From contig NZ_BONW01000044.1 of NCBI RefSeq assembly GCF_016862915.1, positions 1 through 64,000 on the forward strand: a DNA stretch of 64,000 bases, written 5' to 3'. Under the pieces are notes generated by a model, which saw only the letters and a list, made by a program, of their open reading frames with translations, was not told the origin of the DNA and did no database searches. Shown here piece after piece: positions 25,412 through 38,930 of the stretch. The DNA comes from Plantactinospora endophytica. GTDB lineage: Bacteria > Actinomycetota > Actinomycetes > Mycobacteriales > Micromonosporaceae. Position numbers and translations under genes: made by a program. Every line of letters starts with the position of its first letter. Position 1 is the stretch's first letter.

Positions 25412-25530
25412 CGCCCGGTGCGGTCAGGCCGGCGCGGTCAGGCCCGGCGCGGTCAGGCCCGGTGTGCTCAGGCCCGGTGTCGTCAGGCCCGGTGTCGTCA
25501 GGCCCGGTGCCGTCAGGCCCGGTGTGCTCA
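25412..25530 (-). repeat. 15-bp minisatellite at the mpg 3' end, eight units
   Basis: Eight units of the theme GGCCCGGTGTCGTCA run from 25412 to 25530 with small changes. One unit is a base short. The last unit ends with the complement of the mpg stop codon (25528-25530), so each unit repeats the stop in phase. It looks like slippage growth of the gene's end. Confidence 0.9.
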
Positions 25531-25906
25531 GGCCCGCCGGGGCACGTGCCGGCGGTAGGCGCTCACCGTCGGGTCGGCGTCGATCCAGAACCGCCACGGC
25601 AGGTCGTGCGCGCCGGTGACCCCGACCCGTGGACCGGCCGCGATCGTTTCCGGCGGCAGCGGTGCGGCCGGCGGGCGCAGCCGGACCGGTCCGTCACCGA
25701 GCAGGTAACGACCGTAGACGGCCCGGTCCAGGCCGAGCGCCGCGCAGAGCCGGGCGGGTCCGCGCGCCAGATCCACATCCCGGCGTACGGCGGTGCGCCG
25801 GCTCCGCGAGATCTCCACCCCGTCGACCACCTCACCGGCCCGGAGCAGCACCGCCGACGCCTCGCCGTCCGGCCCGGTGACCACGTTCACGCACCAGTGC
25901 ATGCCG
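25528..25906 (-). pseudogene. mpg: 3' half of host 3-methyladenine DNA glycosylase, split by the element
   Basis: This codes the C-terminal about 124 residues of an AAG/MPG-family glycosylase: MHWCVNVVTGPDGEASAVLL, then RAGEVVDG, LARGPARLC and GVTGAHDLPWRFWIDADPTV. The 5' half is at 38696-38930, 12.8 kb away. Joining the two at the shared TGCCG restores codons for ...FTYGMHWCVN..., exactly the family sequence, so the split is caused by insertion and not decay. Excision would restore the gene. The internal ATG has no good ribosome site, and this half lacks the catalytic Glu, so it is not expected to work alone. Confidence 0.93.
25902..25906. other. Left attachment site of the integrative element (core TGCCG)
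   Basis: The host sequence CCAGTGCA-TGCCG meets element sequence CAAGCCTGG here. The same TGCCG occurs at the right boundary (38696-38700). The reconstructed empty host site reads CCAGTGCATGCCGTAGGTG and keeps the mpg frame. A short identity core like this is typical of large serine recombinases. Confidence 0.8.
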
Positions 25907-26026
25907 CAAGCCTGGCACTAAGCACGTACTTGCCGGCGGGTCTGTCCTCCAAGTTGCAAACGGCCGGGGCGGGTGCGCCAACACCCGATCTCCCCGGCCT
26001 TGGCCGACGCAGGAGGTCGACCCGCC

Positions 26027-26758
26027 TTGAGTGTAGAAGCTGTCTCGTGGGCGCTGAACGATGCGCCCGACGTTCCCCCATCCTGCTTGGCCGTGCTGCT
26101 CGGCCTGGCCAACCACGCGCACGCCAACGGCCGAGGCGCGTACCCGTCGCAAGAGCGGCTTGCCCACTACGCCCGTAAGTCGACCCGTTCGGTACGTGCT
26201 GACCTGGCCAGCCTCGAACGTCTCGGCATCATCCGTCGTGGCGATCAGCGGCACGTCGCGTTCATCCCCGTTGACCGCCGACCGGTGGTGTGGGACCTGG
26301 CCGTAGAGCGCACCCGCCCGATCCCTACGGCACTCGACCGGTTCGCCGAGCCGGTATCGGGTCGCTCAGCCGAGGTTCCTCAGCCTGTGGATAACCGGGC
26401 GGAAGCAGAGTTCCGGGCGGTACCCAACCGGGCGGAAGCACAGCGCACGACGGCCGGAAGCACAGCGCAGAGCGGCCGGAAGCCTGCTTCCTACAAACCG
26501 TCCTTGAACCATCAAGAACCAACTACCCGCGCGGCAGCGCGGGATGGTGCCGGGTCGTCTGTGGATGCCGGGTCAAACCGGATTGCTTCTCCGAAGGATC
26601 AACCCCAAACCTCGGCCCGTCGTGGCTGGGAACCGCCGAGGGGTGCGGCCTTGCCGCCCGCTACGGGTGACGCTCGCTGCACGAAGCCGGGGCACGTAGG
26701 CCAGCCTGCCGGTTCCTGCGCCGTCTGCCGCAGTGAGGCGCTTGGGGGTGCCGCGTGA
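26027..26758 (+). CDS. Helix-turn-helix protein of the element, possible replication or control protein
   Basis: This 243-residue protein has an N-terminal winged helix (residues 1-90): PSCLAVLLGLANHAHANG, YPSQERLAHYARKSTRSVRA and DLASLERLGIIRRG. This type is common in phage and plasmid replication and control proteins. The middle is disordered, with repeated RAEAxxR segments. The end holds a four-Cys/His pattern (RCTKPGHVGQPAGSCAVCR) that may bind zinc. I chose TTG at 26027 because AGGAGG (26011-26016) stands 10 bases before it. The open frame extends to 25973 without a better site. It is the first gene of the left-hand operon. Confidence 0.65.
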   Translation: MSVEAVSWALNDAPDVPPSCLAVLLGLANHAHANGRGAYPSQERLAHYARKSTRSVRADLASLERLGIIRRGDQRHVAFIPVDRRPVVWDLAVERTRPIPTALDRFAEPVSGRSAEVPQPVDNRAEAEFRAVPNRAEAQRTTAGSTAQSGRKPASYKPSLNHQEPTTRAAARDGAGSSVDAGSNRIASPKDQPQTSARRGWEPPRGAALPPATGDARCTKPGHVGQPAGSCAVCRSEALGGAA

Positions 26759-26922
26759 CTCCCCTTGCCATCTGGGCTCTGTCCCTTGCTGGCGCCGGGC
26801 TCGCCCTGGTCGTCGCCCTGGTCGCCTTCATCTCTCACCACTCGGTCGGCAGCCACGCCGACCAGCTTGCCGACGCCATCGCCCACCGCTCGGACGTTCC
26901 CCGCGTCCCCACCCGCCGCTGA
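26755..26922 (+). CDS. Small single-helix membrane protein of the element
   Basis: This is a 55-residue protein: one hydrophobic helix (LAIWALSLAGAGLALVVALV) followed by a short His/Asp-rich tail (HHSVGSHADQLADAIAHRSD). The GTG start overlaps the preceding stop (GTGA). The DUF2637 gene begins 12 bases after the stop, and GGAG overlapping the stop serves as its ribosome site. It lies where actinomycete plasmids and AICEs keep small spread (Spd) proteins, so a role in intramycelial transfer is a reasonable guess only. Confidence 0.65.
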   Translation: MTPLAIWALSLAGAGLALVVALVAFISHHSVGSHADQLADAIAHRSDVPRVPTRR

Positions 26923-26934
26923 GGAGCGTCCCCC

Positions 26935-27708
26935 GTGAACATCACCTCCATCACTTCCCGCGCAACTACTGCCCTGGTCGCACTCATCGCCGGCTACGCC
27001 AGCTTCCGTCACATCGTCCAGGTCGCCACCGAGGCAGGCGAACACTCGTCGGTTGCCGTTGCCCTGCCGTTCGCCATCGACGGCGCGATCCTGGTTGGCA
27101 CGCTGGCGATGCTCGACGACAAGCGCAGCGGCCGGAAGCCTCGCGTGTCTGCTCGGCTGGCTGTGGCGTTCGGCATCGTCGCCACCCTTGCCGCCAACAT
27201 CGCCAGTGCACAGCCGACGTGGACTGCTCGTGCCGTTGCCGCCGTTCCCCCGGTCGCCTTCCTGCTCGCCATCGAGGTGCTGTCTCGGCGGGGCAAGCTG
27301 ATCCGGCCTGAGCCGGTCGACCAGGGCGAGCCAGTCAAGGTGGCTGAGCCGGTCATCGTTGAGCCGGTCGAGAGCCTTGCGGCTGAGCCCGTAGCCGAGC
27401 CGGTTGCGGTCGAGCCGGTCAAGGCTCAGCCGGTCAAGGCTCAGCCGGTCAAGGCTCAGCCGGTCAAGCGGGAGCGGACCAGCGAGCCTGCCCGCAAGCC
27501 GGTCCCCCGGTCGCTCACCTCGGCTGACCGGATCATGTCGGCTCACCTCGCCGAACCCGAGGCGACTCACGGCCGGATCGCTGAGCTTGCCGGGGTGTCG
27601 GTGGCGACGGTGAAGCGGTACCGGCCGACCCGCTCGGCTTCTCCGACGCAGCCTGCGGAGACTGCCACCACCGGCATCATCCCTGAGCTTGCCGGGGTGA
27701 CGGCATGA
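26935..27708 (+). CDS. DUF2637 membrane protein of the element (spread-type)
   Basis: This 257-residue protein has four hydrophobic helices in the first about 120 residues (TTALVALIAGYASFRHIV, VALPFAIDGAILVGTLAM, LAVAFGIVATLAANIASA, AAVPPVAFLLAIEVL). This is the DUF2637 pattern found in actinomycete integrative elements and plasmids. A linker of repeated EPV/QPVKA units (about 128-180) is coded by a 15-bp repeat. The C-terminus has a helix-turn-helix-like stretch (THGRIAELAGVSVATVKRYR). It lies between the small membrane protein and the Tra translocase and so is probably part of the transfer machinery. Confidence 0.8.
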   Translation: MNITSITSRATTALVALIAGYASFRHIVQVATEAGEHSSVAVALPFAIDGAILVGTLAMLDDKRSGRKPRVSARLAVAFGIVATLAANIASAQPTWTARAVAAVPPVAFLLAIEVLSRRGKLIRPEPVDQGEPVKVAEPVIVEPVESLAAEPVAEPVAVEPVKAQPVKAQPVKAQPVKRERTSEPARKPVPRSLTSADRIMSAHLAEPEATHGRIAELAGVSVATVKRYRPTRSASPTQPAETATTGIIPELAGVTA

Positions 27709-29465
27709 CCGAGCTTGAGCGGGCTATCCGCAAGCTGCGGCGCAAGCACACCGTGTCGCGGGTGGCCTACCGGTACGTCTCCGGTAGGCCGCTCAGCGGC
27801 AAGGCCGGTCACCCGTACCTGAGCCGGGGTGCTGGTCGGCTCGCCGGTTGGCAGCGTCAGGTGATCCGGTTCGCGGTGCCAACCGTTGGGTTGGTCGCAA
27901 CGGTTCACCCTGAGCCGGTCGGCTCACTGGTCGGCTCAGCCGTTCTGGTCGCTGGCTACCGGCTCAGGCGACGGCTCACCATGCGCCGGTTCAACCGGGA
28001 GTACGTCACCCCGACCCTGGCTGCCCTTGCACCCGCGATGGGTCTACAGACGGGCGTACGGCTACACGTTGACCCGTCGTTGGGCAACCTCACTCCTCGG
28101 CTGGCCAAGCCTCTGAGTCCGGCTGAGACAGCCGTACGTGCCTGGTACGGCGAGCGGGTAGAGCCGGTGATCCGGTGGCTACCTGAGCGTGCACAGCGGG
28201 CAGCCTGGTCGGTGCAGCGCACCGCTCGCCCGGTCACATCCAAACTGGCCGCGTTCCGTCGCCCGGTCGACCCCGACCAGGGTCCGCGTATCGAGCTGAC
28301 GGCAGACACCCCGTACCTGACCAAGGAACAGCGGCAGTTGGTGTCATCCATCATCGGCAGCAAGATCCCCGTCTCTGACCTGGTCGAGTCGTGGAACCAG
28401 GTAGGCCAGCGGGTGCGAGCCGTCTGGACTGTGCGCAAGCGTCCGCCCGCACGGGTCGGTGTCGACCAGGTCGCCGAGCACCTCCCCCGGCTGGCTGAGT
28501 GGGAGTTCTACATCGGGCAGGGTGCAGGCGATCGGCCGGTGATCCTGTCTCTACGCGACGACTCCCCACACATCGCGGTGAGCGCCGGATCGGGCGCGGG
28601 CAAGAGCGTGCTTGCCGAGCTGGTTGCCGTGCAGGTGCTCGCCCGGGGTGGTCGGGTGGTCATCCTTGACCGCAAGGGCTCGCACCGTTGGGCGCTCGGT
28701 CTGGCTGGCGTCGACTACTGCACCCGCCCTGAGCAGATGCATGATGCCCTGGTCAAGCTGGCTGCGCTCGCCGACGAGCGGAATACCCTTGCCCTGCATG
28801 AGCCGGAAGACTGGAACCCCGGTGCCCGGGTGCTGGTCATTGCCGAGGAGTTGAACGCGACCATCGGGCAACTCGTCAACTTCTGGGCCGAGGTGCGCAG
28901 CAACGGTGACCCCAAGCGGTCCCCTGCCGTGTCGGCTCTGGCTGACCTGCTGTTCATGGGTCGCAGTGCCAAGGTCAACGTGCTTGCCATCGCGCAGATG
29001 TTGACCGCTCGGGCGATCGGCGGACCCGAGGCACGGGAGAACTTCGGCATCAGGTGTCTCGCCCGATACACCGCAAACAACTGGAAGATGTTGGTTCCCG
29101 AGGCAGCCATGCCCCGGGCATCTCGCACCCTCGGCCGGTGGCAGGTGGTCATCGGTGGACAGGCAACTGAGGTGCAGGTTGCCTACCTGTCCGCCACCGA
29201 GGCACGGGCGCTTGCATGTCCCCGGTCCTCGGGGACTTCCGAGGTCAGCGGCCTATCAAGCCCTGCCGGGGACTTCCTGACGCTGCGGCAGGCGATCGAT
29301 GGTGGCGTGATCCCGTGGAAGTTGGACGCTGCCAAGAAGCGCCTACAGCGCAAGGTGGGCAAGGTGCCTGCGCCGAGGGGTAAGAGCGGCAACGCGGATC
29401 TGTACGCCCGAGCAGATCTGGTCCGGTGGGCAGGGAGCGAGAGCGACGAGAGGATCAGTCAGTGA
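27705..29465 (+). CDS. FtsK/SpoIIIE-like conjugal DNA translocase
   Basis: This motor protein is the likely transfer protein of the element and moves double-stranded DNA. It has 586 residues. The N-terminal third has hydrophobic segments (VIRFAVPTVGLVATV; LVGSAVLVAGYRL). The ATPase core has Walker A GSGAGKSVLAEL at about residues 295-305, a strand with Asp in VVILDRKGSH, and Walker B-like VLVIAEELNA (about 377). The C-terminal about 80 residues form a small winged-helix-like segment (LTLRQAIDGGVIPWKLDAAK) that could read transfer sites. The ATG overlaps the DUF2637 stop by 4 bases. Such proteins act as hexamers at the membrane. Confidence 0.9.
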   Translation: MTELERAIRKLRRKHTVSRVAYRYVSGRPLSGKAGHPYLSRGAGRLAGWQRQVIRFAVPTVGLVATVHPEPVGSLVGSAVLVAGYRLRRRLTMRRFNREYVTPTLAALAPAMGLQTGVRLHVDPSLGNLTPRLAKPLSPAETAVRAWYGERVEPVIRWLPERAQRAAWSVQRTARPVTSKLAAFRRPVDPDQGPRIELTADTPYLTKEQRQLVSSIIGSKIPVSDLVESWNQVGQRVRAVWTVRKRPPARVGVDQVAEHLPRLAEWEFYIGQGAGDRPVILSLRDDSPHIAVSAGSGAGKSVLAELVAVQVLARGGRVVILDRKGSHRWALGLAGVDYCTRPEQMHDALVKLAALADERNTLALHEPEDWNPGARVLVIAEELNATIGQLVNFWAEVRSNGDPKRSPAVSALADLLFMGRSAKVNVLAIAQMLTARAIGGPEARENFGIRCLARYTANNWKMLVPEAAMPRASRTLGRWQVVIGGQATEVQVAYLSATEARALACPRSSGTSEVSGLSSPAGDFLTLRQAIDGGVIPWKLDAAKKRLQRKVGKVPAPRGKSGNADLYARADLVRWAGSESDERISQ

Positions 29466-29806
29466 TCGAGACCGTGGCCTACGCCAGCCACACCGCGCAC
29501 ATCGACCCGATGACCGGTGAGGGTCTATTGGTCCTGCCGAGGGTCGCCGACGACATCGACCCGCTCGGCGGGGTGGTCACCTTGCACGCCGCTGACTGGG
29601 ATCACGCCATCGGGGATCTCGGCCAGCGAGGCTGGCAGCCGAGCGAGGATGACGGCGGGGACCTGGTCCACGTCGGCACCACCGTTGACGGTCGCCCGGT
29701 CATCGGTCTCTACGGGCGAGAGCCGGTCACCTCGCTGCCGAGTGTCGACCAGGCTGCCGAGTCGTGGCGGGAACTGCTCACCGTCGCCGAGGTTGTCACC
29801 GAGTAG
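29462..29806 (+). CDS. Unknown 114-residue protein of the element
   Basis: This begins at GTG 29462, overlapping the translocase stop (GTGA). It is an acidic, soluble, globular-looking protein with no recognisable domain (DPLGGVVTLHAADWDHAIGD, QRGWQPSEDDGGDLVHVG). It is the last gene of the transfer operon and ends before a hairpin. Coupling to the translocase suggests an accessory role, nothing firmer. Confidence 0.6.
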   Translation: MIETVAYASHTAHIDPMTGEGLLVLPRVADDIDPLGGVVTLHAADWDHAIGDLGQRGWQPSEDDGGDLVHVGTTVDGRPVIGLYGREPVTSLPSVDQAAESWRELLTVAEVVTE

Positions 29807-29816
29807 GCAGCGAACC

Positions 29817-29859
29817 AGCGAGCCCGGCTCTCTCACGTCGAGGGGGTCGGGCTCTCGCT
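29817..29859. terminator. Hairpin between convergent element genes
   Basis: AGCGAGCCCG (29817-29826) pairs with CGGGCTCTCGCT (29848-29859), with a two-base bulge. It separates the transfer operon from the convergent Xis-like gene. Confidence 0.5.
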
Positions 29860-29863
29860 GTGC

Positions 29864-30046
29864 TCAGCCCTGGTCGGGTCGGTTCTCCCTGATCCACTTC
29901 TCCACATCACGCCGACGCCAGACCTTGCCCATGATCAGCTTAGCGACCGGATCGGGGAACCCCTTGGAGTTGGTGATCACGTTGGCACGCTGCCGGCTGA
30001 TGTCGCCGAGCATCGCCCGAATCTCCGCCACTCCGACAAGGTCCAC
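29864..30046 (-). CDS. AlpA/Xis-like small DNA-binding protein
   Basis: This 60-residue protein has the MerR/AlpA-type fold: VGVAEIRAMLGDISRQRANV, then ITNSKGFPDPVA and KVWRRRDVEKWIRENRP. These are the hallmark of excisionase-like and AlpA-like proteins. It probably helps excision by directing the serine integrase, or regulates the element. The start is GTG 30046. It diverges from the gene at 30151 across a region with an inverted repeat. Confidence 0.75.
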   Translation of the reverse strand: MDLVGVAEIRAMLGDISRQRANVITNSKGFPDPVAKLIMGKVWRRRDVEKWIRENRPDQG

Positions 30047-30114
30047 AGCTATTGACGGTAGACGTGGACATGTGCTACGGGAGCGACAACGTCCTAAGAC
30101 GCGAGCACAGGCCG

Positions 30115-30134
30115 TTGACGGTCGACTACGTCAA
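30115..30134. promoter_or_regulatory. Inverted repeat in the divergent control region
   Basis: TTGACG (30115-30120) and CGTCAA (30129-30134) form a perfect 6-bp inverted repeat with an 8-base spacer, between the Xis-like gene and the gene at 30151. TTGACG could also serve as a -35. A second TTGACG stands at 30052. This is a good candidate for the element's control switch. Confidence 0.45.
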
Positions 30135-30150
30135 GCGACACCATGTGAGG

Positions 30151-30474
30151 ATGTCCAGCGAGAGCACACCCAAACCGGCCCGGTTGTCGATCTTCCGCCG
30201 GAACCGCCCCCGTCCGCTTGTCGCACCAGGCGACACCGTGCACGCTCCCGAGTTCGCGCACTTCCAGCCGTACGACGACACGGCGCGGATACTCGGGGAC
30301 CTTCGCCTACGGGTTACCGCCATCCCGGTCGGCACGGCGCCAGTACGGGAAGGCTTCCAACTGTTGCGCGGGTACGTGGTCGACGCTGACGGGTTCGAGG
30401 CTGTCGCCGAATCCTGGCACTACGTGCGGTTGGCTTCCTGTCGGGTGTCGATGCCACCCGGGGAGCGCCCCTGA
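30151..30474 (+). CDS. Unknown 107-residue protein of the element
   Basis: The first 17 residues are basic (SIFRRNRPRPLV). A soluble beta-rich domain follows (FAHFQPYDDTARILGDLRLR, FQLLRGYVVDADGFEAVAES). No family is recognised. ATG 30151 is my choice. GTG 30145 or an upstream start at 30052 remain possible, but the latter would run through the inverted repeat. The transcript may be nearly leaderless. Confidence 0.5.
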   Translation: MSSESTPKPARLSIFRRNRPRPLVAPGDTVHAPEFAHFQPYDDTARILGDLRLRVTAIPVGTAPVREGFQLLRGYVVDADGFEAVAESWHYVRLASCRVSMPPGERP

Positions 30475-30533
30475 CCGGCGGTGCGTTGGCTGGACACGTC
30501 GAGGGATGGCCCATTGAGCCAGACGCGAAGATG

Positions 30534-30561
30534 CCCCGGCACCCATCACGGGTGACCGGGG
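30534..30561. terminator. Hairpin between convergent element genes
   Basis: CCCCGG (30534-30539) pairs with CCGGGG (30556-30561), with an inner ACCC/GGGT stem, followed by CTCTTGTCGTT. It lies between the genes ending at 30474 and 30581. Confidence 0.55.
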
Positions 30562-30580
30562 CTCTTGTCGTTCCCGGGAG

Positions 30581-31045
30581 TCAACGGTACCGCTGGCGTG
30601 CCGTCGCAAGCTGCGTCTTGATCGTTTGCTTCGGCACCCCTAGACGGTCCGACAGCACATTGATCGGGGCGGGGTGGCCGGCTGCGTCCAGCATGTCGAA
30701 CAGCGCAAGAAGGCCACGGTAGTACTCATCCGCTCCCTTGCGCGGACTGTCCGGCATCCTGGCTACAGCGCCCCTCAGAGCACGTGCCGAGATCCCCGAT
30801 AGGTGCGCTGTCTCGGGCTGGCCGACTACCTCGGCTTGCATCTCGGAGATCAACCGCTCGACCCGGCGGGCTACGCCCGTCGTGTATCCACGAACCTTGA
30901 CCTTCGGGTCAGCGTCCACGGCCAGCGACACCGACACCTCAGCCGGTCCCTCAGACAGTGGCTTTCCATCCTTGGTCTCCCAGGTCGCGGTGACGATCCA
31001 GCCCGCTTCCGTCTTCGTCTTCGTGACCCTGCCTGCTGCGCTCAT
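30581..31045 (-). CDS. Unknown 154-residue protein with C-terminal HTH
   Basis: The N-terminal half is beta-rich (VTKTKTEAGWIVTATWETKD, EVSVSLAVDADPKVKVRGYT). The C-terminal 40 residues look like a helix-turn-helix (INVLSDRLGVPKQTIKTQLA, then TARQRYR). It is transcribed alone, opposite to the operon starting at 31377. It could be a regulator of that operon. Proteins of this shape are common as unknowns in actinomycete elements. Confidence 0.65.
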   Translation of the reverse strand: MSAAGRVTKTKTEAGWIVTATWETKDGKPLSEGPAEVSVSLAVDADPKVKVRGYTTGVARRVERLISEMQAEVVGQPETAHLSGISARALRGAVARMPDSPRKGADEYYRGLLALFDMLDAAGHPAPINVLSDRLGVPKQTIKTQLATARQRYR

Positions 31046-31376
31046 ACCGACAGCCTGACAGGCTCAACCCCGCATTGACAACCTAGGACTGTCAGACATG
31101 TGCCGTACATCACTCAGCTCTGGCCTGTCAACCCTGGGTTGGATGGAGTAGATTGGTTGTTGTGGGGCTGACTGCCCCGCGCTGGAAGTTGACAACTCAA
31201 GATCAGTGCGAACCGAGGCAGTGCGACCCGGGTCAACCAGCGCGGACCCGACGCAGCGACGAACTACGCCACGACCCGAGGATCGTCCTCGGCGAGCGAG
31301 ACGGCGTGATGCGACCCGCGCACAGATAGGCGACCGGCCACCGGGGCCGGATGCGAACGACAACGAGAAGGAGCGC

Positions 31377-31550
31377 ATGAGGGGCCCGACCGGCGGGCCT
31401 GAATCACGGAAGCAGGTGATCAACCTGACCGACGAACTGCGCGAGATCGCCCGGCGGATCGCCGAGGCTGCACCACCCCTGACCCCCGACCAGCGCGCCC
31501 GCTTGCGCGGGCTACTCAGCGCGACCGACCGCCACGGGGTGGCCGAGTGA
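31377..31550 (+). CDS. Unknown 57-residue protein of the element
   Basis: The ATG at 31377 follows GAGAAGGAG at a good distance, which is why I prefer it to the longer frame from 31206. The protein is helical and charged (NLTDELREIARRIAEAAPPL then TPDQRARLRGLL), like a small DNA- or protein-binding helix pair. It opens a run of four overlapping small genes. Confidence 0.6.
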   Translation: MRGPTGGPESRKQVINLTDELREIARRIAEAAPPLTPDQRARLRGLLSATDRHGVAE

Positions 31551-31741
31551 CTGGATACCTGGTCGCCGAGTGGACTCGGTCCGAGGGGTACGCCGATACC
31601 GGCATCCGCACCGACACCTACGCCGAGGCCGAGGCTGAGGGGTGCCGGCTGCACCGGACCTACGGTCCACAGTCCCGCTACCTGCCGATGTCCCTGCCAC
31701 GGGCTATCGACCTGGGTGTGGTCTGGAGTGGTGGCCGGTGA
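31547..31741 (+). CDS. Unknown 64-residue protein of the element
   Basis: The GTG start overlaps the previous stop (GTGA). It is a small soluble protein rich in Tyr/Arg (YLVAEWTRSEGYADTGIRTD) with no recognised domain. The 4-base overlaps on both sides support it as a real operon member. Confidence 0.55.
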   Translation: MTGYLVAEWTRSEGYADTGIRTDTYAEAEAEGCRLHRTYGPQSRYLPMSLPRAIDLGVVWSGGR

Positions 31742-31971
31742 ACATCCCCGCAACGTTCAACCCATCTGCCCTTGTCGAGGCGTACAGGCAAGCGCTGAGC
31801 GCCTACGACTACTACCGCGAGCTGAAGGCCAAGGGAGACGCCGAGTCGATGGATGAGGCGCGATGCCTGCTCCTCGGCTGGGGCGAGGTCTGGGAACTGC
31901 TCGACGCGATCGGCCTGCCAGTCGAGCAGGACGAGGACAGCGACGGAGCCGGTGATGAGGCCATCGACTGA
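31738..31971 (+). CDS. Unknown 77-residue acidic protein of the element
   Basis: The GTG start at 31738 overlaps the preceding stop. The content is helical (ALVEAYRQALSAYDYYRELK, DEARCLLLGWGEVWELLDAI) with a very acidic tail (EQDEDSDGAGDEAID). The family is not known to me. Confidence 0.6.
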   Translation: MNIPATFNPSALVEAYRQALSAYDYYRELKAKGDAESMDEARCLLLGWGEVWELLDAIGLPVEQDEDSDGAGDEAID

Positions 31972-32330
31972 TGACCATCAACTTCAACGGCGACCCCTGG
32001 GGCGGCATGAACCAGGCGGCACAACGACGGAAGGCCAAGGACCCCCGACACGCGCTGGTCTACCGCGTAGAGGCTGCCGCGATCGGTTGGGCCAACAACA
32101 TCGGGCATAGCCGGTTCGACGGTTTGACCCTGAGGCAGATCCTCACCGACGGGCGGGGCAACGAACCGAGCCGGCAGATCATCGACAAGGCCGTCCGCAA
32201 GGCGAAGGAGCTGGGGCTGATCGAGCCTGAGTCCAACTCCCGGTGCCTGGTCGTGTCTCGTCGAACCTTCCAGCGGGGCGGCCGGGGCTCCTACATCTGC
32301 CAGGTACACGGCATCTCGCGGGGACGGTGA
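31971..32330 (+). CDS. Unknown 119-residue protein, possible winged helix
   Basis: Basic overall. The segment FDGLTLRQILTDGRGNEPSR and on through IIDKAVRKAKELGLI looks like a winged-helix DNA-binding region. The stop overlaps the first of three GGTGAAGCCTG repeats in the following non-coding region. An element protein acting on that region is conceivable. The ATG overlaps the previous stop by one base. Confidence 0.6.
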   Translation: MTINFNGDPWGGMNQAAQRRKAKDPRHALVYRVEAAAIGWANNIGHSRFDGLTLRQILTDGRGNEPSRQIIDKAVRKAKELGLIEPESNSRCLVVSRRTFQRGGRGSYICQVHGISRGR

Positions 32331-32733
32331 AGCCTGGGGGGTGAAGCCTGCGAGGCTTCAAGGTGAAGCCTGTGAGGCTTCGCCATCTGTCCTCTGAGCT
32401 GGGAGAACGCAAGCGTTCTCTTATCTCTTCTACACCCTCACCACAACCCGAACGCCGGTAGCGCTGGGGCCCTGTGCGCTTCGCGCGCTGTGCCGCTGCG
32501 CTCCTGGTAGTCCATGCAGCGGCGAGAGCATGAGCGGCCGGAGGCCGCAACGCCCGAGAGACCTGCTCAACAGGTTGGGGCCCGTTCGGGCCCACCATCG
32601 GGAAGCTTCCTGCCGCTGCCCCGAGGTACCCGGGCACTCTGCTCCGCGCTCGCCACTGCACCGCGAGAGCAACCCCAACTGATCACCCTGCCGACAAGAG
32701 CCGGCTATCACCCATGAACGGAGACACCGACCA
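32326..32733. promoter_or_regulatory. Structured non-coding region of the element (candidate origin or transfer locus)
   Basis: About 400 bases without a credible gene but full of structure. GGTGAAGCCTG occurs three times (32326, 32340, 32362). Two perfect GAAGCC/GGCTTC hairpins lie at 32343-32359 and 32365-32381. An 8-bp inverted repeat GAGAACGC-AA-GCGTTCTC lies at 32403-32420, followed by TTATCTCTT. GCGGCC/GGCCGC is at 32534-32548 and GGGCCCGTTCGGGCCC at about 32578-32593. Clustered direct repeats are the usual form of TraB-type transfer sites, and hairpin clusters occur at origins. A double terminator is the plain alternative for the first part. Confidence 0.5.
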
Positions 32734-32970
32734 GTGACTACCCCTCCACCCAAACTCACCAAAAAGGAACGCGAGGCTGCCCGCAACCTTGCCGAGCAGC
32801 GATGGGCCCTGGCCCATGACGTCAAGCGCAACGCCGCTGCTCGACTCGCCCAGGTGCAAGCCGATCCCAACTGCACTGCCGACGAGATCACCGAGGCGAC
32901 CGAGGCACTGAGCGAGGCAACCGCGCTCTACCGCTCTGCCCAGGCTGCCGCTCAGGGTGATCGGTGGTGA
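32734..32970 (+). CDS. Unknown 78-residue charged protein of the element
   Basis: It is almost wholly helical and charged (KLTKKEREAARNLAEQRWAL; ADEITEATEALSEATALYRS), probably a coiled coil. The GTG start at 32734 is the first after the structured region. Its stop overlaps the next start. Confidence 0.55.
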   Translation: MTTPPPKLTKKEREAARNLAEQRWALAHDVKRNAAARLAQVQADPNCTADEITEATEALSEATALYRSAQAAAQGDRW

Positions 32971-33425
32971 CCTACGCCTGCCGCGCTCCCCGGAAGCATC
33001 GGCTGCGCGCGTCTCGGGTCTGGGATGAGTCGAGCATGATCCTGCCGACGCTGGTCTCTCAGGTACTCACCAACGTCTGCGGGAACCTGGTCGACATCCA
33101 ACCCTCTGCACCTCGGGGCGAGGTAATGCGACCGGAGATCCGGCCGGCGATCCGGGTACGTCCGAGGTGCATCCCGTGGGTCGAAGGTAACCGGCTGACC
33201 GGTCGACTGCTGGTCGTGACGTTCGTTGACGGTGGCGACCCGCTGACGATCAATCCGCTGACCCTGGTCAACCGGGTGACTGGCGACGTGCTTCCCGAGC
33301 ACATGACCGGCCTGCCCGGGGTGGCGATGAAGCTGCGCACGATGGATCGGCCGATCATCCGCGACAAGATCCCGCACCGCCCGTCCTACGTGGCGCACTA
33401 CTGGTCGGCTGTCGCGACCCTCTGA
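32967..33425 (+). CDS. Unknown 152-residue protein of the element
   Basis: GTG 32967 overlaps the previous stop (GTGA). An in-frame GTG three bases earlier is also possible. The protein is basic and beta-rich (RPAIRVRPRCIPWVEGNRLT, GRLLVVTFVDGGDPLTINPL) with several Arg-rich turns. No domain is recognised. It is followed by a 75-base gap and a strong ribosome site for the next gene. Confidence 0.6.
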   Translation: MTYACRAPRKHRLRASRVWDESSMILPTLVSQVLTNVCGNLVDIQPSAPRGEVMRPEIRPAIRVRPRCIPWVEGNRLTGRLLVVTFVDGGDPLTINPLTLVNRVTGDVLPEHMTGLPGVAMKLRTMDRPIIRDKIPHRPSYVAHYWSAVATL

Positions 33426-33499
33426 CCACCAACCCAACCACTACCACCCATCCCGGGCCGGCTACCTGCCGGCCTTCAACTGTCTCTGGAGGAATTCCC

Positions 33500-34621
33500 G
33501 TGGCTACGAAGCCCAACAGCAAGACCACCCGCACCGCTACCGACATCGCTGCCGAGAAGCTGACCGAGGCTCGGGCCCTGGTCGACCAGCGACGCACCGA
33601 GCATGAGCAGGCCGAGGAGACGCACGCCGAGCTGATCACGCGGTTAACCCGTGGCGACGCCAGCGTGAGCGCGCTCGACCTGGTAACCGCCGAGGCTGAG
33701 ATCACCCGTCTTGGCTACCTGGTCGAGGCTGCCCGGAAGGCAGTCACTCCGGCTGAGAAGGCGCTCGACTCCGCGCAAGCGATCGACTCGCCGACGCTGG
33801 CCCGGTTCGTTGCTGAGCGGATCGAGGCTGACCCGTTCGCCTTCGGGGTGTACGGCTTCCCGGTGACGGTCAACGCCGACGACCGGACCAAGCCGGGCGT
33901 GTACGTCAACCAGGCGACGGCGACCAAGACCGATCCGGGTACCGGCATCATCTCCGGCCACGTCGGCATCACGGTCGTCACGCCGAACGGCTCGCCGATC
34001 GATGGCGCTGCCGTGCTGGCCGGTCTGGCTGCCATCGAGCGGGCCGGCGCTGCGCTGGTGAACGCCAACGCCAGCCCGAGCCCTGACGGGGTGACCGTCG
34101 ATGTTCGGCTGACCGACGTCAAGCCGGACATGCCGACCCTGACGGCCGACATCGACAGCAACGCTCTGCGGAACTTCGCCCTGGACCTGATCGAGAACAT
34201 CACCAAGCAGGGCGGCTGGTCCAGCCGGGGCGACAGTGACCCGTACGGCGGTGGCCTGTACGGCGGTAGCGGTCTCTGGGATCGCGGAACGAGCGTCAGG
34301 CGGATCCTGTCTGGGCTCGACACCGTGACCGTCACCAGTCAAGGGCGAGACGGCGACCAGGAGCAGCGCACCGTGCGGGTTGTCTTCGACCTGTCGTCTC
34401 GGCAGTTCGGCGCCCGTGACCTGAGCGAGTTCACCCGGACCAGCATCGGCAACCTGGTCGGCGAGATGGCGGCCGGTATCGGCCGGATCGAGGCTGCCCG
34501 CGTGGTGAGCGGGGAGCCGACCATCGAGAAACCAACCCCTGGCCGGGAGTTCAGCGACTCCGCCAAGTCCGGAGTGCGGTTGGTCGTCGAGGTTGACGCT
34601 GTCGCCCGGATCGCCGGCTGA
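33500..34621 (+). CDS. Unknown 373-residue protein with N-terminal coiled coil
   Basis: The N-terminal about 100 residues form a coiled coil (DIAAEKLTEARALVDQRRTE, AEAEITRLGYLVEAARKAVT). A beta-rich region (VYGFPVTVNADDRTKPGVYV, ADIDSNALRNFALDLIENIT) and a Gly-rich loop (YGGGLYGGSGLWDRG) follow. The C-terminus is alpha/beta. A GGAGG ribosome site precedes the GTG. It is the largest unknown protein of the element and ends before a hairpin. It might be structural or DNA-binding, but I cannot tell which. Confidence 0.65.
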   Translation: MATKPNSKTTRTATDIAAEKLTEARALVDQRRTEHEQAEETHAELITRLTRGDASVSALDLVTAEAEITRLGYLVEAARKAVTPAEKALDSAQAIDSPTLARFVAERIEADPFAFGVYGFPVTVNADDRTKPGVYVNQATATKTDPGTGIISGHVGITVVTPNGSPIDGAAVLAGLAAIERAGAALVNANASPSPDGVTVDVRLTDVKPDMPTLTADIDSNALRNFALDLIENITKQGGWSSRGDSDPYGGGLYGGSGLWDRGTSVRRILSGLDTVTVTSQGRDGDQEQRTVRVVFDLSSRQFGARDLSEFTRTSIGNLVGEMAAGIGRIEAARVVSGEPTIEKPTPGREFSDSAKSGVRLVVEVDAVARIAG

Positions 34622-34635
34622 CAAGACCATGATGG

Positions 34636-34669
34636 GGCGGGGTGCTGGGTGCGATCCCGGTGCCCCGCC
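34636..34669 (+). terminator. Hairpin after the central element operon
   Basis: GGCGGGG (34636-34642) pairs with CCCCGCC (34663-34669), with an inner GGG/CCC pair. It lies just after the stop of the 373-residue protein gene. The remaining bases up to 34888 show no gene. Confidence 0.5.
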
Positions 34670-34888
34670 TTCGGCGTATCCGGCGGCCGACCCTGCAACA
34701 GTGGCACGTTTCGACACCATCTCAACCAGCATCTGCCCTGCTCAAGGCCGAGATACCCCGATCCGAGCGACTTCGGAACCGTGGCAAGATCTCAGCCGCT
34801 AAGACGTGGCGGTAGCGAAGCCCCGGCCGAGGGGGTCATACCCCCAGGTTGCTCGGGCGGAGTGGGCGCCCTGTGGTTGGATCGCCTC

Positions 34889-35449
34889 ATGACGTCACCA
34901 GGGCTGTCAACCGCAACACAGTTGCCTGCGCTGATCGTGATCTCGGACCTGGGTAAACCCAGCGTCCTGGATGTCGCGGACTACTTCACGTCAATCGGCG
35001 GACTCTGGGCGTGGGCATGGGAAGTTGCTCTGGACGTGACACCCGATGAGGCGAATGACCTGGTTGAGTATCAGAATTGGGCCGTCGAACCGGAGCAACC
35101 AGAACTTCTGGCTACCTCGATCCGTCTCGGAAGTCCATTAGAGTCGGTCTTAACGACTGCCGTTGACAACTATCTGCCGATCGCCTACAGCGTTACTGGC
35201 ATAGCTGTCGTTGAGCGTGTTATTCGTCTGATCATGGATTGGCAGGCGCATCGGCAGACCCTATCGCTGCAACGGCGCGAGATGGACACACAAGAGGCCG
35301 AGGAGGCGATGCGGGAGGCAGCAGGCGCCGAATTGCGGCCTCGACGGAGTGGCAGTAGCCAACTTCGGCGGACTGAGACCGCGATCGTCCGGCTAGCGCG
35401 ACACCGGATCATCGAGGTGCGTCGCGAGGACGGAGGCGAGGGGGCTTGA
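34889..35449 (+). CDS. Unknown 186-residue protein, atypical composition (possible cargo)
   Basis: The gene is notably less GC-rich than its neighbours, a sign of separate origin. It has a hydrophobic stretch (YLPIAYSVTGIAVVERVIRL) followed by a charged helical part (LSLQRREMDTQEAEEAMREA). This looks like a membrane-bound or membrane-adjacent protein with a helical arm. I chose ATG 34889. The longer frame from 34649 has no ribosome site. Its stop overlaps the next start, so the two form a pair. Confidence 0.6.
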   Translation: MTSPGLSTATQLPALIVISDLGKPSVLDVADYFTSIGGLWAWAWEVALDVTPDEANDLVEYQNWAVEPEQPELLATSIRLGSPLESVLTTAVDNYLPIAYSVTGIAVVERVIRLIMDWQAHRQTLSLQRREMDTQEAEEAMREAAGAELRPRRSGSSQLRRTETAIVRLARHRIIEVRREDGGEGA

Positions 35450-35856
35450 TGTCAGAGCACGACAGCCAACCAGTGATTTCTGAGCGGAAAAACGGGGATC
35501 GGCTGATCGGCATCGCCGGTCCGTTGGCTCAAGACCTGTACGACCAGGGCACTCCACCTGTGCACGGACTCGCCAGCAAACCTGTGCCGTCGCCCCGCGT
35601 CGCCGACGTGCGGATAGGGGACCGGCTACGAGTGGAGCGGGTAGGCGATCAGTGGACCGTGCGGGACCGTGAGGGGCAGCTCGGCATCCTGCGTTGGCGA
35701 CGGGCCGACGACGGCAGGCGGCACGCAGTGACGGGCAAGGTTGTCCGGCTACCGCACGCGGGCACCCTGCATGTACAACGGCTCGTCATCGACCCGCAAG
35801 GCGCGGTGAAGGACATCGGCGGGTACGTCGAACCGGAGCAGACTCCCGGTCGCTGA
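35449..35856 (+). CDS. Unknown 135-residue protein, partner of the preceding gene
   Basis: The ATG overlaps the previous stop (TTGATG). The second half is beta-rich and basic (VADVRIGDRLRVERVGDQWT, GKVVRLPHAGTLHVQRLVID), like a small OB- or SH3-like barrel. No signal peptide is seen. The function is unknown. Confidence 0.55.
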   Translation: MSEHDSQPVISERKNGDRLIGIAGPLAQDLYDQGTPPVHGLASKPVPSPRVADVRIGDRLRVERVGDQWTVRDREGQLGILRWRRADDGRRHAVTGKVVRLPHAGTLHVQRLVIDPQGAVKDIGGYVEPEQTPGR

Positions 35857-35914
35857 CCAAGGGTGAGGAAGGCAGGGCCGAAAGGGTCACGTCCCCAGGG
35901 CGAATCAGGCTCGT

Positions 35915-36481
35915 TCACACCTTCGCGGACACCTCTGGCGGTTCATCCTCATCGGGTCGCTGCGGAAGAACGAATCGATGGGTCCAGTCCACTCTTCCAA
36001 GGCGAGGCTTCATCGACTCGTGTTTTTCGAGGAACAGACGAAGCGAGGAATTATCCCATGCCTTTAAGTGATCATCGTAGTACACAGTTAGAAGATTTTG
36101 CAGCGAAGACACCTCATGCTGCGCGCCGTGAAGCGCTTTGTCGGCAGACTGCGCGCTCCGCTCAACACCCCTGAGCCGTTCACTCTCCTCAACACTCGCA
36201 GCCCTTGTCTTTTCAAGCTCTAGGCGCAATTCTTCGTTCTCGCGCTTCGCTACGGCCAACTCTTCTTGCACGCGATCAAGGCTATCCGTAAGGCGGGTCA
36301 TCATGGTGTCAGCAACCTGTACCGCCTTTTCGGCTATGTTGATCTTCTTCTCTCGCCGATTAAGCAGATGACCGACCAGCAATGAAATCAACGTGCCCAA
36401 GCCAAGGGCAGTCGCAATCGCAACACCTATGGCAACCTTCTCGGCCGTAGTCACGTCGCCTGCCCTCGTCAGCTCTGGCAC
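35915..36481 (-). CDS. Membrane-anchored coiled-coil protein, atypical composition (possible cargo)
   Basis: This 188-residue protein has one N-terminal membrane helix (VAIGVAIATALGLGTLISLL) and a long coiled coil (about 50-125: LTDSLDRVQEELAVAKRENE, ELRLELEKTRAASVEESERL). A basic/aromatic C-terminal domain follows (YYDDHLKAWDNSSLRLFLEK). The DNA is much less GC-rich than the host, with AT-rich codons that are rare elsewhere here, so it was probably acquired separately. It stands alone on the minus strand. Entry exclusion or a defence role would fit such a cargo gene, but nothing proves it. Confidence 0.6.
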   Translation of the reverse strand: MPELTRAGDVTTAEKVAIGVAIATALGLGTLISLLVGHLLNRREKKINIAEKAVQVADTMMTRLTDSLDRVQEELAVAKRENEELRLELEKTRAASVEESERLRGVERSAQSADKALHGAQHEVSSLQNLLTVYYDDHLKAWDNSSLRLFLEKHESMKPRLGRVDWTHRFVLPQRPDEDEPPEVSAKV

Positions 36482-36638
36482 CTAGCCGAGCAGACTACCA
36501 ACACATGCCCATCCCGCGATCCTCGGAACGGGCGGCCGGTAAAGCCGATCATGTCGGGTCGTGTCCTACACCAACCACGCTCTGCCCACCGTCTGCGAGT
36601 CCCCACGCCAACGGGAGTTGCCGAGCCGGGCTCAGTGG

Positions 36639-37256
36639 TTAGCGCGACAGGCTCGCGCTGGCCAGCTTGCTTCGCCGGTACGCGGACACGGTCGGATCAC
36701 CCGTCAACCAGTACCGCCAGGGCCAGTCATGCGCCCGGCTGACACCGACCCTCGGTCCAGATGAGACAGCCGCAGGCGGGCGGGCAGGCGGAGCCAACAC
36801 CAGCGATCCGCCGTCGAGCAGGTGCGCGCCGCTGTGCTGGGTTGTCAGCGCCAACGATTGACCCAGGTTGCCGGGACCACGGGCGAGCGACCGCAGAGCA
36901 ACGTGCTCACCTCGGCGATGCTGCGCCAGGTCGACCCCCTCGACTACCCGACCAGCCCTGAGCAGGACAGCCGACGCGTCACCCTCGGTGCCGGTGACCA
37001 CGTTGGCGCAGAAGTGCAGCCCGTGCGACAGGTAGACGTACAGCCGTCCGGCCGGACCGAACATGACGGCGTTGCGGGCAGTCTGACCACGCCACGCATG
37101 CGAGGCGGGATCGGTCTCGCCCGCGTACGCCTCGGTCTCGGTCAGCTCGACGGTGACCACGCCGTCAGGTGTGTGATGGGTGAGCGTCCAGCCGATCAGC
37201 GCAGGGGCGACCAGGGGGGCGGGTTGCGCCAGGATGGCGAGCGGATCAGGCGACAA
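36639..37256 (-). CDS. mpg: Complete 3-methyladenine DNA glycosylase carried by the element
   Basis: This base-excision repair enzyme removes alkylated purines. It has 205 residues, complete for the family: the catalytic Glu region VELTETEAYAGETDPASHAW, then VMFGPAGRLYVYLSHG, LHFCANVVTG, and the C-terminal GVSRAHDWPWRYWLTGDPTV. I start it at TTG 37256, with GGAGG 9 bases upstream. This puts its start 11 bases inside the integrase gene. It replaces the function of the host gene that the element breaks. At the position matching the host att site its sequence is changed, so it lacks the TGCCG target. Confidence 0.92.
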   Translation of the reverse strand: MSPDPLAILAQPAPLVAPALIGWTLTHHTPDGVVTVELTETEAYAGETDPASHAWRGQTARNAVMFGPAGRLYVYLSHGLHFCANVVTGTEGDASAVLLRAGRVVEGVDLAQHRRGEHVALRSLARGPGNLGQSLALTTQHSGAHLLDGGSLVLAPPARPPAAVSSGPRVGVSRAHDWPWRYWLTGDPTVSAYRRSKLASASLSR

Positions 37257-38664
37257 CGGGTGAACCCTCCCGAGTCTCGGTCTGCGGCATCCGCCAGGTG
37301 AGCTGAACGTCTTCACCCCGAGGCAGCCTGGCACCCTTGCGGCGAGGCATCAGGCGGATCGACTCGCACGCGGTCTCGATAATCGTGCGTACCCGCTCGG
37401 TCTCCATCTGGTCGATGGCTTCCCACACGGACTCGATGTCCGACAGGTCGACACCAACCCGCGCTGTCGCGATCTCGGCGAGGCGATCACGGATCTCGGT
37501 CAGCCGGCTGTCTGCCGCAGCAGTACCGGCGGCAAGCGCAGCCTGGTCGACCGTGCCAGCGACGAACAACTCAGCCAGTGACTGCTTCCGGGCGAGTACG
37601 GCGGACTCTTCTACCCGCAGTTGCGTCGACTCCTGCTCGGCTTCCTGGTCGACAGGCTGAACGTTCCACTGGTCCGCTTGGTTGATCAGCCGGCGCAACA
37701 CGTAGGAGTCGAGCCAGTCGGCAGGGATGGTGATACACCGACCTTCCCGGCAGGTGTAGATCCGGTACCGCTCGCCTGCCTGGTTCTGCTTGGACCAGCC
37801 TTGCGACGCCTTCCCGCCACACCGCGAGCAGGTCGCTACACCTACCAGCAACCCCTTGCGCCTGCCACCCCCGCCCGTGTTGCGGCTGGGCTCTGACAGG
37901 TGACGGACGGTCGCGCGGTACACATCCTCAGGAACGATCGGTTCCCACGTCGCGGGGTTGCCAGTCTCTGCCCCGTTGTACGTGAGGATGGCAGCGTTCC
38001 GCTCGCACATAAGGACATGCCTCAGGTTGGAGGAACGCCAACGGTTGCCCTTCGGGGTGAGGATGCCGGCAGCGTTCCACCTGGCAGCGATCGAGTAGAC
38101 CGACTGCCCCGTCAGAACATCCGCGTACGCCTGCCGCAACGGCTCAGCCTCGCTCTGCCGGTGATCCCCGTTCCGCTCGAACCCGAACGGGCGAACGGTC
38201 CACCAGGGGCGGCCGGTTTGTACCCGCTGGTGTTGCGCTGCCTTCTGCCGGGCGGACTTGATCTCGACCTCTTGCCGTGCGGCGCTGCCGAGGATGCGAG
38301 CGAGGAACCGACCGTTCGGCGTCGACAAGTCCAACTCTCCGGACACCGTCGCCAGCGTGACTCCGGTCCGCTCGGTGAGGTCGACCAGGTCTTCAAGGTC
38401 TCGCAGGTTCCGGTACATCCGGTCGACCTGCCAGGCAACGACAACGTCAACGGCACCCGAGGTGATCAGGTCGAGCACCTGCCGCCAGCCTGGCCGAACC
38501 TTGCGGGTAGAGGCTGAGACCGAGTTGTCGACGATCACCGCAGTGACCTGCCAGCCTCGCTGCTCACACAACTCTCGGCATGCCTGTTCCTGCCGGGCTA
38601 CGCCCAACCCCTCGCCGGTGGCGTCCAGCGAGATACGCGCGTAAATCACAGCCCGTTTGCCCAT
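37246..38664 (-). CDS. int: Large serine integrase
   Basis: This site-specific recombinase inserts and excises the element. It has 472 residues. The catalytic domain starts VIYARISLDATGEG with the nucleophile Ser12, followed by VVVAWQVDRMYRNLRDLEDL. The recombinase domain (about 155-270) includes FGFERNG and SIAARWNAAGILTPKG. A zinc ribbon has paired Cys in TCSRCGG and CREGRC, and a coiled coil (about 340-400) follows. It lies 31 bases inside the right end, reading inward, the normal place for an integrase gene. Its 3' end overlaps the element mpg start. Confidence 0.95.
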   Translation of the reverse strand: MGKRAVIYARISLDATGEGLGVARQEQACRELCEQRGWQVTAVIVDNSVSASTRKVRPGWRQVLDLITSGAVDVVVAWQVDRMYRNLRDLEDLVDLTERTGVTLATVSGELDLSTPNGRFLARILGSAARQEVEIKSARQKAAQHQRVQTGRPWWTVRPFGFERNGDHRQSEAEPLRQAYADVLTGQSVYSIAARWNAAGILTPKGNRWRSSNLRHVLMCERNAAILTYNGAETGNPATWEPIVPEDVYRATVRHLSEPSRNTGGGGRRKGLLVGVATCSRCGGKASQGWSKQNQAGERYRIYTCREGRCITIPADWLDSYVLRRLINQADQWNVQPVDQEAEQESTQLRVEESAVLARKQSLAELFVAGTVDQAALAAGTAAADSRLTEIRDRLAEIATARVGVDLSDIESVWEAIDQMETERVRTIIETACESIRLMPRRKGARLPRGEDVQLTWRMPQTETREGSPVVA

Positions 38665-38695
38665 CGTGCTATCCTACATGCTCACGGACAGACCT

Positions 38696-38700
38696 TGCCG
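38696..38700. other. Right attachment site of the integrative element (core TGCCG)
   Basis: Element sequence GACAGACCT-TGCCG meets host sequence TAGGTGAAG. The reconstructed circular attP reads ACCTTGCCGCAAGCC, centred on the perfect 11-base palindrome CTTGC-C-GCAAG, which fits a serine integrase site. Confidence 0.8.
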
Positions 38701-38930
38701 TAGGTGAAGTACGCGTAGGCGTACCCGGCCGGCCCGAACATCACCGAGTTGCGTGGCGTACGCCCCCGGTGCGCGTGCGACGCCGGGTCCCCGCCACTGC
38801 CGGCGTACGCCTCCACCTCGGTGAGCCGGACGGTGACGCCGCCGGCCGAGAGGGTGGCGCCGAGCAGCCCGCGCGCCGCCGGTACCACCGGGCCGGCCAG
38901 CAGGGCGGCGAACTCCTCGACCCGCGTCAT
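38696..38930 (-). pseudogene. mpg: 5' half of host 3-methyladenine DNA glycosylase, split by the element
   Basis: This codes the first 78 residues: [20 protein letters not shown], the catalytic region [20 protein letters not shown], and [16 protein letters not shown]. It then reads four element codons (KVCP) and stops at about 38682. It keeps the host promoter and start, so a short inactive product may be made. The 3' half is at 25528-25906. Confidence 0.93.

Follow-up and report, generated by a model that had tools for sequence, protein, structure and literature searches.

The locus considered here lies in a stretch of 64,000 nucleotides from Plantactinospora endophytica (assembly GCF_016862915.1, contig NZ_BONW01000044.1), hereafter the window, and raises the question how an integrative element can settle in the middle of mpg, the gene of a 3-methyladenine DNA glycosylase, and what then becomes of the broken function. 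Our answer, to which we assign a probability of roughly 0.8, is whole-gene replacement: the element would break the only mpg of its host and supply a whole, distantly related mpg as substitute. A reading of the sequence alone had described the host gene as cut in its middle, and both its N-terminal and its C-terminal part are recovered with profile PF02245, one at either end of the element as that reading had them; the exact ends had to be shifted to two crossover dinucleotides, which give the element a length of 12,794 bp. The features of the locus are as follows.

38700..38930, minus strand: N-terminal part of host mpg (PF02245 positions 5-74, E 3.2e-21)
38698..38699, minus strand: right crossover dinucleotide, GG on the coding strand (placed from intact relatives and in-register attP arms)
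38674..38697, minus strand: attP arm beside the integrase (matches the inverted other arm, register on GG)
37246..38664, minus strand: large serine integrase, 472 aa (PF00239 8.6e-33, PF07508 5.7e-9)
36639..37256, minus strand: element mpg, 205 aa, TTG start (PF02245 3-181 of 181, E 2.2e-61)
35915..36481, minus strand: open frame (weak coiled-coil-type family matches)
31971..32330, plus strand: small protein (tblastn to L077, L078, L076)
27705..29465, plus strand: FtsK/HerA-like ATPase, candidate DNA-transfer protein (PF01935 9.8e-7, phrog_1358 1.2e-4)
26935..27708, plus strand: DUF2637 protein (PF10935 4e-17)
25973..26758, plus strand: helix-turn-helix protein, replication-initiation-like (PF13730 8.9e-10, phrog_1032 1.2e-23)
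25906..25929, minus strand: attP arm at the left end (in-register match to the opposite arm)
25904..25905, minus strand: left crossover dinucleotide, GG on the coding strand (placed as the right one)
25528..25903, minus strand: C-terminal part of host mpg (PF02245 positions 72-180, E 1e-33)

Compared with three genes of the same genus, the N-terminal part of the host gene is 92-95% identical over 78 residues and the C-terminal part 88-95%, and the intact mpg of same-genus genomes runs continuously across the position of the split. The break falls in the conserved Tyr-Gly-Met codons. From there the host frame reads four codons into the element and ends at a TGA (38684-38682), so that the element does not rebuild host mpg in place; a separate gene is supplied. 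Attachment sites attP of large serine integrases consist of imperfect inverted arms flanking a 2-bp centre, with little identity to attB; set in register on GG, the arms agree at 14/24 positions in the window (shuffle p 0.0002), 15/24 in G231 and 12/24 in G782, neighbouring registers giving 1-7. No tRNA gene serving as integration site was found within the window. Joined, the host halves give one continuous frame, and they are conserved like intact genes (dN/dS 0.13-0.20 against congeners), so that the insertion looks recent; from the same in-frame, undecayed halves it may be inferred that the gene would be restored when the element leaves, as the sequence-only reading held. That reading had also named a second complete host mpg elsewhere in the genome as a finding which would make replacement irrelevant; the profile search of the whole assembly yielded three PF02245 matches only, namely the two host halves and the element gene. 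Because of these three matches, the unbroken gene of the congeners and the recurrence of the arrangement described below, the combination of split and substitute is not attributed to chance. An assembly artefact is unlikely too, since the arrangement recurs, among others within a single contig of Micromonospora sp. U21.

The claim of a complete, divergent mpg on the element, starting inside the 3' end of the integrase gene, is borne out, with an overlap of 11 nt. The gene shares about 55% identity with the host type, scores 240.5 bits against NCBIfam NF002003 (cut-off 182) and matches the human AAG chain with E 6.5e-25; it is a full-length member of the MPG family and encodes a predicted glycosylase. 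The columns of the residues which we take to be catalytic (Glu, Tyr, His, Asn and Arg) are unchanged in the element copies. What is altered is the Tyr-Gly-Met motif, which is present in 30/30 sampled resident genes; the window copy has His-Gly-Leu instead, and Ser-His-Gly-Leu is found at this place in all nine element-type copies. His at the motif also occurs in 2/26 further resident genes, and the absence of Tyr-Gly-Met therefore does not exclude membership of the family. The motif Tyr is presumably the residue which intercalates into DNA in human AAG, so that its replacement by His may change the activity or specificity of the substitute. Element-type genes are under purifying selection, with dN/dS of 0.12-0.27 (0.12-0.26 in 15 pairs among six copies of a second genus, introduced below), and in four of these six the integrase is 5'-deleted, frameshifted or was not found.

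In the MPG tree, to which 27 rows were added after a first version and from which rows below 140 residues were left out, the element MPGs of both groups fall into one branch (support 96/88), G417 being the only other row in it, and host mpg genes group with their own families, apart from this lineage. Support for the element branch was weak (61/14) in the first, smaller tree, which was built without nearer residents. The nine element-type copies alone do not form one branch in the free tree, and their monophyly is not rejected (p-AU 0.425). Duplication of host mpg as origin of the second copy is ruled out by the trees.

The element probably is a small conjugative or mobilizable integrative element of actinomycete type. 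Actinomycete integrative and conjugative elements (AICEs) range in size from about 9 to 24 kb, and an element of 12.8 kb with a site-specific integrase fits this range. The zinc-ribbon match of the integrase (PF13408, 6e-5) falls just short of the cut-off. The matches to a transfer protein of FtsK/SpoIIIE type are HerA/FtsK-like and weak only, and the replication-initiation match at 25973-26758 is of phage type (PHROGs); the true start of the latter frame may be a TTG near 26027. Pfam scans of 19 element frames gave no RepAM or Prim-Pol match, no directionality factor for the integrase was identified, and a promoter scan gave no sigma-70-type promoter near the left end. A prophage was considered and rejected: the eight element frames scanned with PHROGs contain no phage structural gene, and searches of viral contigs, which detect close relatives only, turned up one distant integrase and nothing related to the element mpg. 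A known plasmid was dismissed likewise, the element having no near DNA match. The small protein at 31971..32330 has counterparts of 40-42% identity in three elements of the second genus (L077, L078, L076).

The arrangement was sought in 354 genomes of the family, 392 genomes of a second, Streptomyces-like genus and 394 genomes of the class. In the family, all three close integrases (the window included) lie in a broken mpg and bring a full one; in the second genus, all four integrases of the clade lie in an mpg broken at the same site and carry a full mpg. Target and cargo thus coincide in 7/7 clade integrases, across two families and two gene orders, and the seven form one branch (support 100/99). 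The overlap of integrase and mpg holds for three genomes; in the second-genus elements mpg instead follows directly after the broken host frame, which ends in ATGA with the ATG being the start of the imported gene (4/4 elements, and retained in G422). A further 22 integrases, which are more distant (identity no higher than 41%), gave no mpg match in their short loci. Within the family and class samples no genome has an mpg broken at the attachment site without a second full mpg. It speaks against replacement that mpg is absent from 111 of the 394 class genomes, so that its loss may cost little.

Eight genomes with two PF02245 pieces were rejected as cases (G037, G106, G156, G216, G267, G042, G397, G381), their break lying off the site at profile positions 82-152, and G105 was left out of the count as a contig break within a continuous frame. 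Kept apart from the seven are G015, G024, G064 and G140, in which a broken host mpg is joined by a second one from a different lineage and whose searched loci gave no integrase of this clade. In G140 mpg is occupied by a different element, which has inverted ends of about 90 bp and brings an mpg whose motif is changed to Phe-Gly-Met; the two contigs on which these ends lie gave no serine recombinase match, and the genes of this element have no Pfam, NCBIfam or PHROG match. A solitary N-terminal mpg fragment was seen in G344.

Relatives of the element occur in several states of decay. In Micromonospora sp. U21 about 19 codons of host mpg are gone; in G431 the host junction is deleted and the integrase lacks its first 65 codons; in G835 one base is missing at the host junction and the integrase is open (with CTG where G782, whose integrase is frameshifted, has GTG); in G913 the integrase is open as far as readable, its 5' part being N. 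Restoration of host mpg looks impossible or doubtful in U21, G431 and G835. The same split without an integrase, which the sequence-only reading would have held against itself, does occur in G422; since the element-type mpg is kept there, as it is in G549 next to a mere scrap of host mpg, we read both as later stages and do not count them against replacement. With the integrase broken or lost, the element-type copy stays intact as the sole mpg of the genome, and in some relatives the imported gene seems to have replaced that of the host permanently.

Why the integrase should spare the gene it brings is suggested by the target site. Over the central 24 bp of the window attB the element copies have 7-9 mismatches and the sampled family residents 0-2 in 15 of 16 cases, the remaining one having 6, while residents of other families differ at up to six bases; against the attB of the second genus its six element-type copies have 13-15 mismatches and nine residents 0-2. 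Carrying Ser-His-Gly-Leu where the integrase attacks, the substitute should not serve as a target for the element that brings it, and probably escapes. The altered motif may stem from the donor lineage rather than from evolved protection, because His is shared by two residents: G630, and G417, which has Ser-His-Gly-Ile, lies inside the element MPG branch and had no integrase detected.

From these observations a course of events may be proposed. The integrase would recognise the codons surrounding Tyr-Gly-Met, where conservation of mpg is highest, and insertion would break the only host gene of this glycosylase family, for which the imported, distantly related mpg would stand in once expressed. 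In the window type, host stub, integrase and mpg follow each other in this order on the same strand, their frames overlapping; in elements of the second genus, ribosomes ending the host stub could start the imported mpg, since the host frame ends in ATGA. With a substitute supplied and altered at the attack site so that the rescue copy is spared, insertion would therefore be tolerated. Excision would rejoin the host gene as long as its halves are undamaged; where decay reaches these or the integrase first, the sole mpg left to the cell would be the imported one, kept by selection, and the chromosomal mpg would end up taken over. We tentatively go further and regard it as possible, rather than probable, that this is a natural disrupt-and-rescue element, which destroys a host gene at a near-invariant motif and leads by an immune rescue copy to stepwise takeover; it may be one of several kinds, as G140 suggests.

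Three other explanations have to be weighed. The mpg could be ordinary cargo, gained by chance or for extra alkylation repair, its location in host mpg being coincidental, and mpg genes are indeed found on other mobile DNA (relatives in 151 plasmid and 13 phage records); the agreement of target and cargo in every clade integrase and the lack of site-broken genes without a full second copy make this unlikely. Less likely still is an old gene displacement, in which a second mpg was acquired or duplicated and an integrase later invaded the redundant old copy without functional link. Such a history would suit the double MPG genes without integrase in G003, G005 and G379, as well as G015, G024 and G064 with no clade integrase near their broken gene. 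It accords poorly with a second mpg that lies inside the element, overlapping or adjoining the integrase or the junction, with relatives of this gene that track the integrase between families, and with the well-conserved host halves of the window.

His at the motif in all element copies might also mean a changed job, the enzyme acting on other substrates such as the modified DNA of rivals, or in host defence, with host repair lost. We consider this the least credible of the three in view of the unaltered catalytic columns; a housekeeping role is better suited, because the copy remains intact, constrained and the sole mpg after integrase loss. Whole-gene replacement is the reading we retain.

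Comparable systems exist. Gene-restoring islands damage a gene on integration and bring sequence by which its function is kept (PMC12884075), and a thaumarchaeal element provides a new stop codon (PMC6563490). The window element resembles such islands in maintaining function; as far as they are described there, a short end is supplied in place, whereas here the break is mid-gene and a separate whole gene, altered at the target, is brought. SpyCI islands in mutL, skin in sigK and the comK prophage split genes that are rejoined on excision (PMC4129442, PMC8987985); they act as off-switches, and the portions consulted mention no substitute gene. Actinobacterial serine integrases likewise enter protein genes, as in the AICE Faln2929 and in mycobacteriophage Bxz2, the latter in a putative DNA glycosylase gene; the portions consulted mention no substitute for either (PMC3218068, PMC9262239). 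Among the titles and abstracts listed from the open-licence literature, none joined a serine integrase to an mpg target or substitute. Synthetic cleave-and-rescue drives destroy a host gene and rescue it by a recoded, target-resistant copy; the present element is natural and recombinase-based, with the insertion itself being the damage, and the likeness is one of analogy, not membership.

Such replacement would show how a mobile element can land harmlessly in a conserved gene by supplying a copy that should escape its attack, and it outlines how an insertion that does no harm could turn into a state in which the cell depends on the element. It would also account for the exchange of a repair gene, at its own locus, for a distantly related homologue, and it points to an integrase whose attB in many mpg genes of actinomycetes is predictable. 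If the disrupt-and-rescue proposal is true, arrival would cost the host little, and the element would be hard to lose once the host halves have decayed.

In the window, the host methylpurine-DNA glycosylase gene (mpg, family PF02245) is split by a 12,794-bp element carrying its own mpg, laid out as follows.

38930-38700, minus strand: host mpg N part (PF02245 positions 5-74)
38699-38698, minus strand: crossover GG, integrase side
38684-38682, minus strand: TGA closing the broken host frame, inside the integrase-side arm
38664-37246, minus strand: integrase, a large serine recombinase
37256-36639, minus strand: element mpg, full length
25905-25904, minus strand: crossover GG, left side, after the left arm
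25903-25528, minus strand: host mpg C part (PF02245 positions 72-180)

Read along the minus strand, the host N part is followed by GG, the arm, the integrase, the element mpg, other element genes lying on either strand, the left arm, GG and the C part. The broken host frame gains Lys-Val-Cys-Pro and stops, with the integrase ATG 17 nt past this stop. The split as located by the sequence-only reading is borne out to within a few bases, and the complete element mpg it had described, starting within the integrase 3' end, was recovered as a full-length PF02245 match whose TTG start overlaps the integrase stop by 11 nt. A second complete host mpg, which would make the replacement irrelevant, is absent: no PF02245 match beyond the host halves and the element mpg occurs in the whole 9.68-Mb assembly, and the element mpg is therefore the sole intact mpg of the genome. 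A 15-bp tandem repeat (GCCCGGTGCGGTCAG, 8.3 copies, 25413-25536) touches the host mpg 3' end.

Intact genes of the same genus read TAC TTC ACC TAC GGG ATG CAC TGG at the site. The N side of the window departs from this run after TACGG and the C side joins at GGCATGC, the crossover centre being positions 1 and 2 of the Gly codon in Tyr-Gly-Met. The element arms form an imperfect inverted repeat about GG (14/24 matches in register against 1-6 in neighbouring ones; shuffle p 0.0002), as do those of the G231 (same family) and G782 (second, Streptomyces-like genus) elements about the same centre (15/24 and 12/24). Joined in silico, the window host halves give one open frame with 90-94% identity to three same-genus genes and dN/dS of 0.13-0.20 against them (0.18-0.20 among those three); on this sequence, the host gene shows no decay since insertion. 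At the host C-part junction, Micromonospora sp. U21 (L042 near 4886) and second-genus G835 (L076 near 14346) have a single G where GG is expected, a sign of either imperfect rejoining or subsequent decay.

Among 354 Micromonosporaceae genomes, integrase matches (E <= 1e-60) were found in 20, the window counted, of which only U21 (93%) and G231 (81%) are close to the window integrase, the remainder showing <= 41% identity. Both integrases lie in a broken mpg and have an mpg overlapping their end, which is the arrangement the earlier reading had proposed to search for. Of the U21 element ~2.4 kb remains, holding the integrase and mpg in reversed orientation, and the U21 host N part is short by about 19 codons. 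The G231 element falls on two contigs, and next to its host C part the helix-turn-helix gene (58%), the DUF2637 gene (66%) and the initial 53 residues of the FtsK-like gene (83%) each have a relative. Good family genomes nearly all contain mpg (332/335).

In a class sample, where PF02245 occurs in 283/394 genomes, the pattern was spotted in G431; of 392 genomes of its genus, four carry the clade integrase (E <= 1e-85). In all four, a full mpg accompanies a host N part that stops at profile position 73; the C part was found in three, the G913 sequence past the integrase reading N. Here the imported mpg directly follows the host stub, and the integrase lies at the opposite end on the opposite strand. 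In all four, the junction reads TACGGCATGTCAAGGC(A/G)GTC(A/G)GCATGAA(C/T)G, and at its ATGA the host frame stops (TGA) and the imported mpg begins (ATG).

A single branch (support 100/99) unites the seven integrases, and no mpg match occurs in the loci of the other 22 integrases of the tree, which reach ~1.5 kb to each side. Family and class genomes with more than one PF02245 match, plus one weak lone match, were re-examined (17 genomes in one round, 5 in another), and none has an mpg broken at the crossover site without a full second copy. In G140 a different element (L052 4741-5829, L053 5451-5860) interrupts mpg close to this site and brings a complete mpg whose motif is Phe-Gly-Met. The ends of this element are inverted, about 90 bp and 87% alike, its two contigs gave no serine recombinase match, and its large genes gave no family matches. 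In G015 (L045), G024 (L046) and G064 (L047, L048) the host mpg is broken or a fragment, and a full mpg of another lineage reads Ile-Tyr-Gly-Leu at the motif. No clade integrase was found in their searched loci; by sequence they look like older replacements.

Tyr-Gly-Met stands at the crossover in 30/30 aligned residents (mpg genes outside elements) and Ser-His-Gly-Leu in 9/9 element-type copies (those of the seven elements, G422 and G549). Over the central 24 bp, element copies mismatch the window attB at 7-9 positions, as against 0-2 in 15 of 16 family residents (6 in one) and 2-6 in residents of other families; against the second-genus attB, its six copies show 13-15 mismatches and nine residents 0-2. 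Since 26 further residents, chosen by likeness to the element mpg, include two with His and one with Phe at this motif, the altered motif may derive from the donor. Full element-type copies keep unchanged the catalytic columns Glu, Tyr, His, Asn and Arg, their roles being assigned from human AAG (aligning to the element MPG at E 6.5e-25). Each of the related genomes G003 and G005 (L056, L057) has a pair of complete MPG genes, of which one is a distant paralogue reading His-Gly-Ile at the motif.

In an MPG tree of 79 rows, the nine element-type copies and the resident of G417, from another family, form one branch (96/88), host genes grouping with their own families; constraining the nine copies alone is not rejected (p-AU 0.425). 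An earlier tree lacking nearer residents supported the element branch weakly (61/14). The nearest residents reach 65% identity, the same closeness as between the two element groups. The G417 gene (L102/L130), sole mpg of its genome, reads Ser-His-Gly-Ile and has no clade integrase within 15 kb; it may belong to a donor lineage or mark a takeover long past. Most family residents lie elsewhere in the tree than the split G231 resident (L043, L044), which clusters with the G229 resident and the second-lineage mpg genes in G105 and G140; it looks as though it had been replaced once already.

All nine element-type mpg frames are open, with dN/dS of 0.23-0.27 (three family pairs) and 0.12-0.26 (15 second-genus pairs). 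An intact integrase is present in the window, U21 and G231. Its frame is open in G835 and, over the readable part, in G913; the G431 integrase is 5'-deleted, that of G782 is frameshifted, and the loci of G422 and G549 yielded no integrase. Read by eye, the shortened host stub of G422 runs in frame as far as the ATGA where the imported mpg starts, and the imported-type mpg of G549, its only PF02245 match, is preceded by an apparent scrap of the host mpg start. Pieced together from separate genomes, these states suggest a sequence of decay stages.

The element body (a replication-initiation-like protein, a DUF2637 protein and an FtsK/HerA-like ATPase, the last a weakly matching candidate transfer protein) is consistent with a small conjugative element, which may be an AICE. 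Published work describes islands restoring their own target gene (PMC12884075), AICEs with serine integrase inserted in protein genes (PMC3218068), a putative DNA glycosylase gene occupied by a mycobacteriophage (PMC9262239) and switches splitting a gene (PMC4129442, PMC8987985); the titles and abstracts searched yielded no serine integrase linked to an mpg target or substitute. Gene-sparing integration is already known in kind, and we rate a whole homologue without the target as a new means to it. At the level of genomic comparison, the target, the substitute, its recurrence, its difference at the target and its retention are evident; the substitute MPG would be active, expressed via the host or integrase transcript and able to escape the integrase, and the element may still be able to excise.
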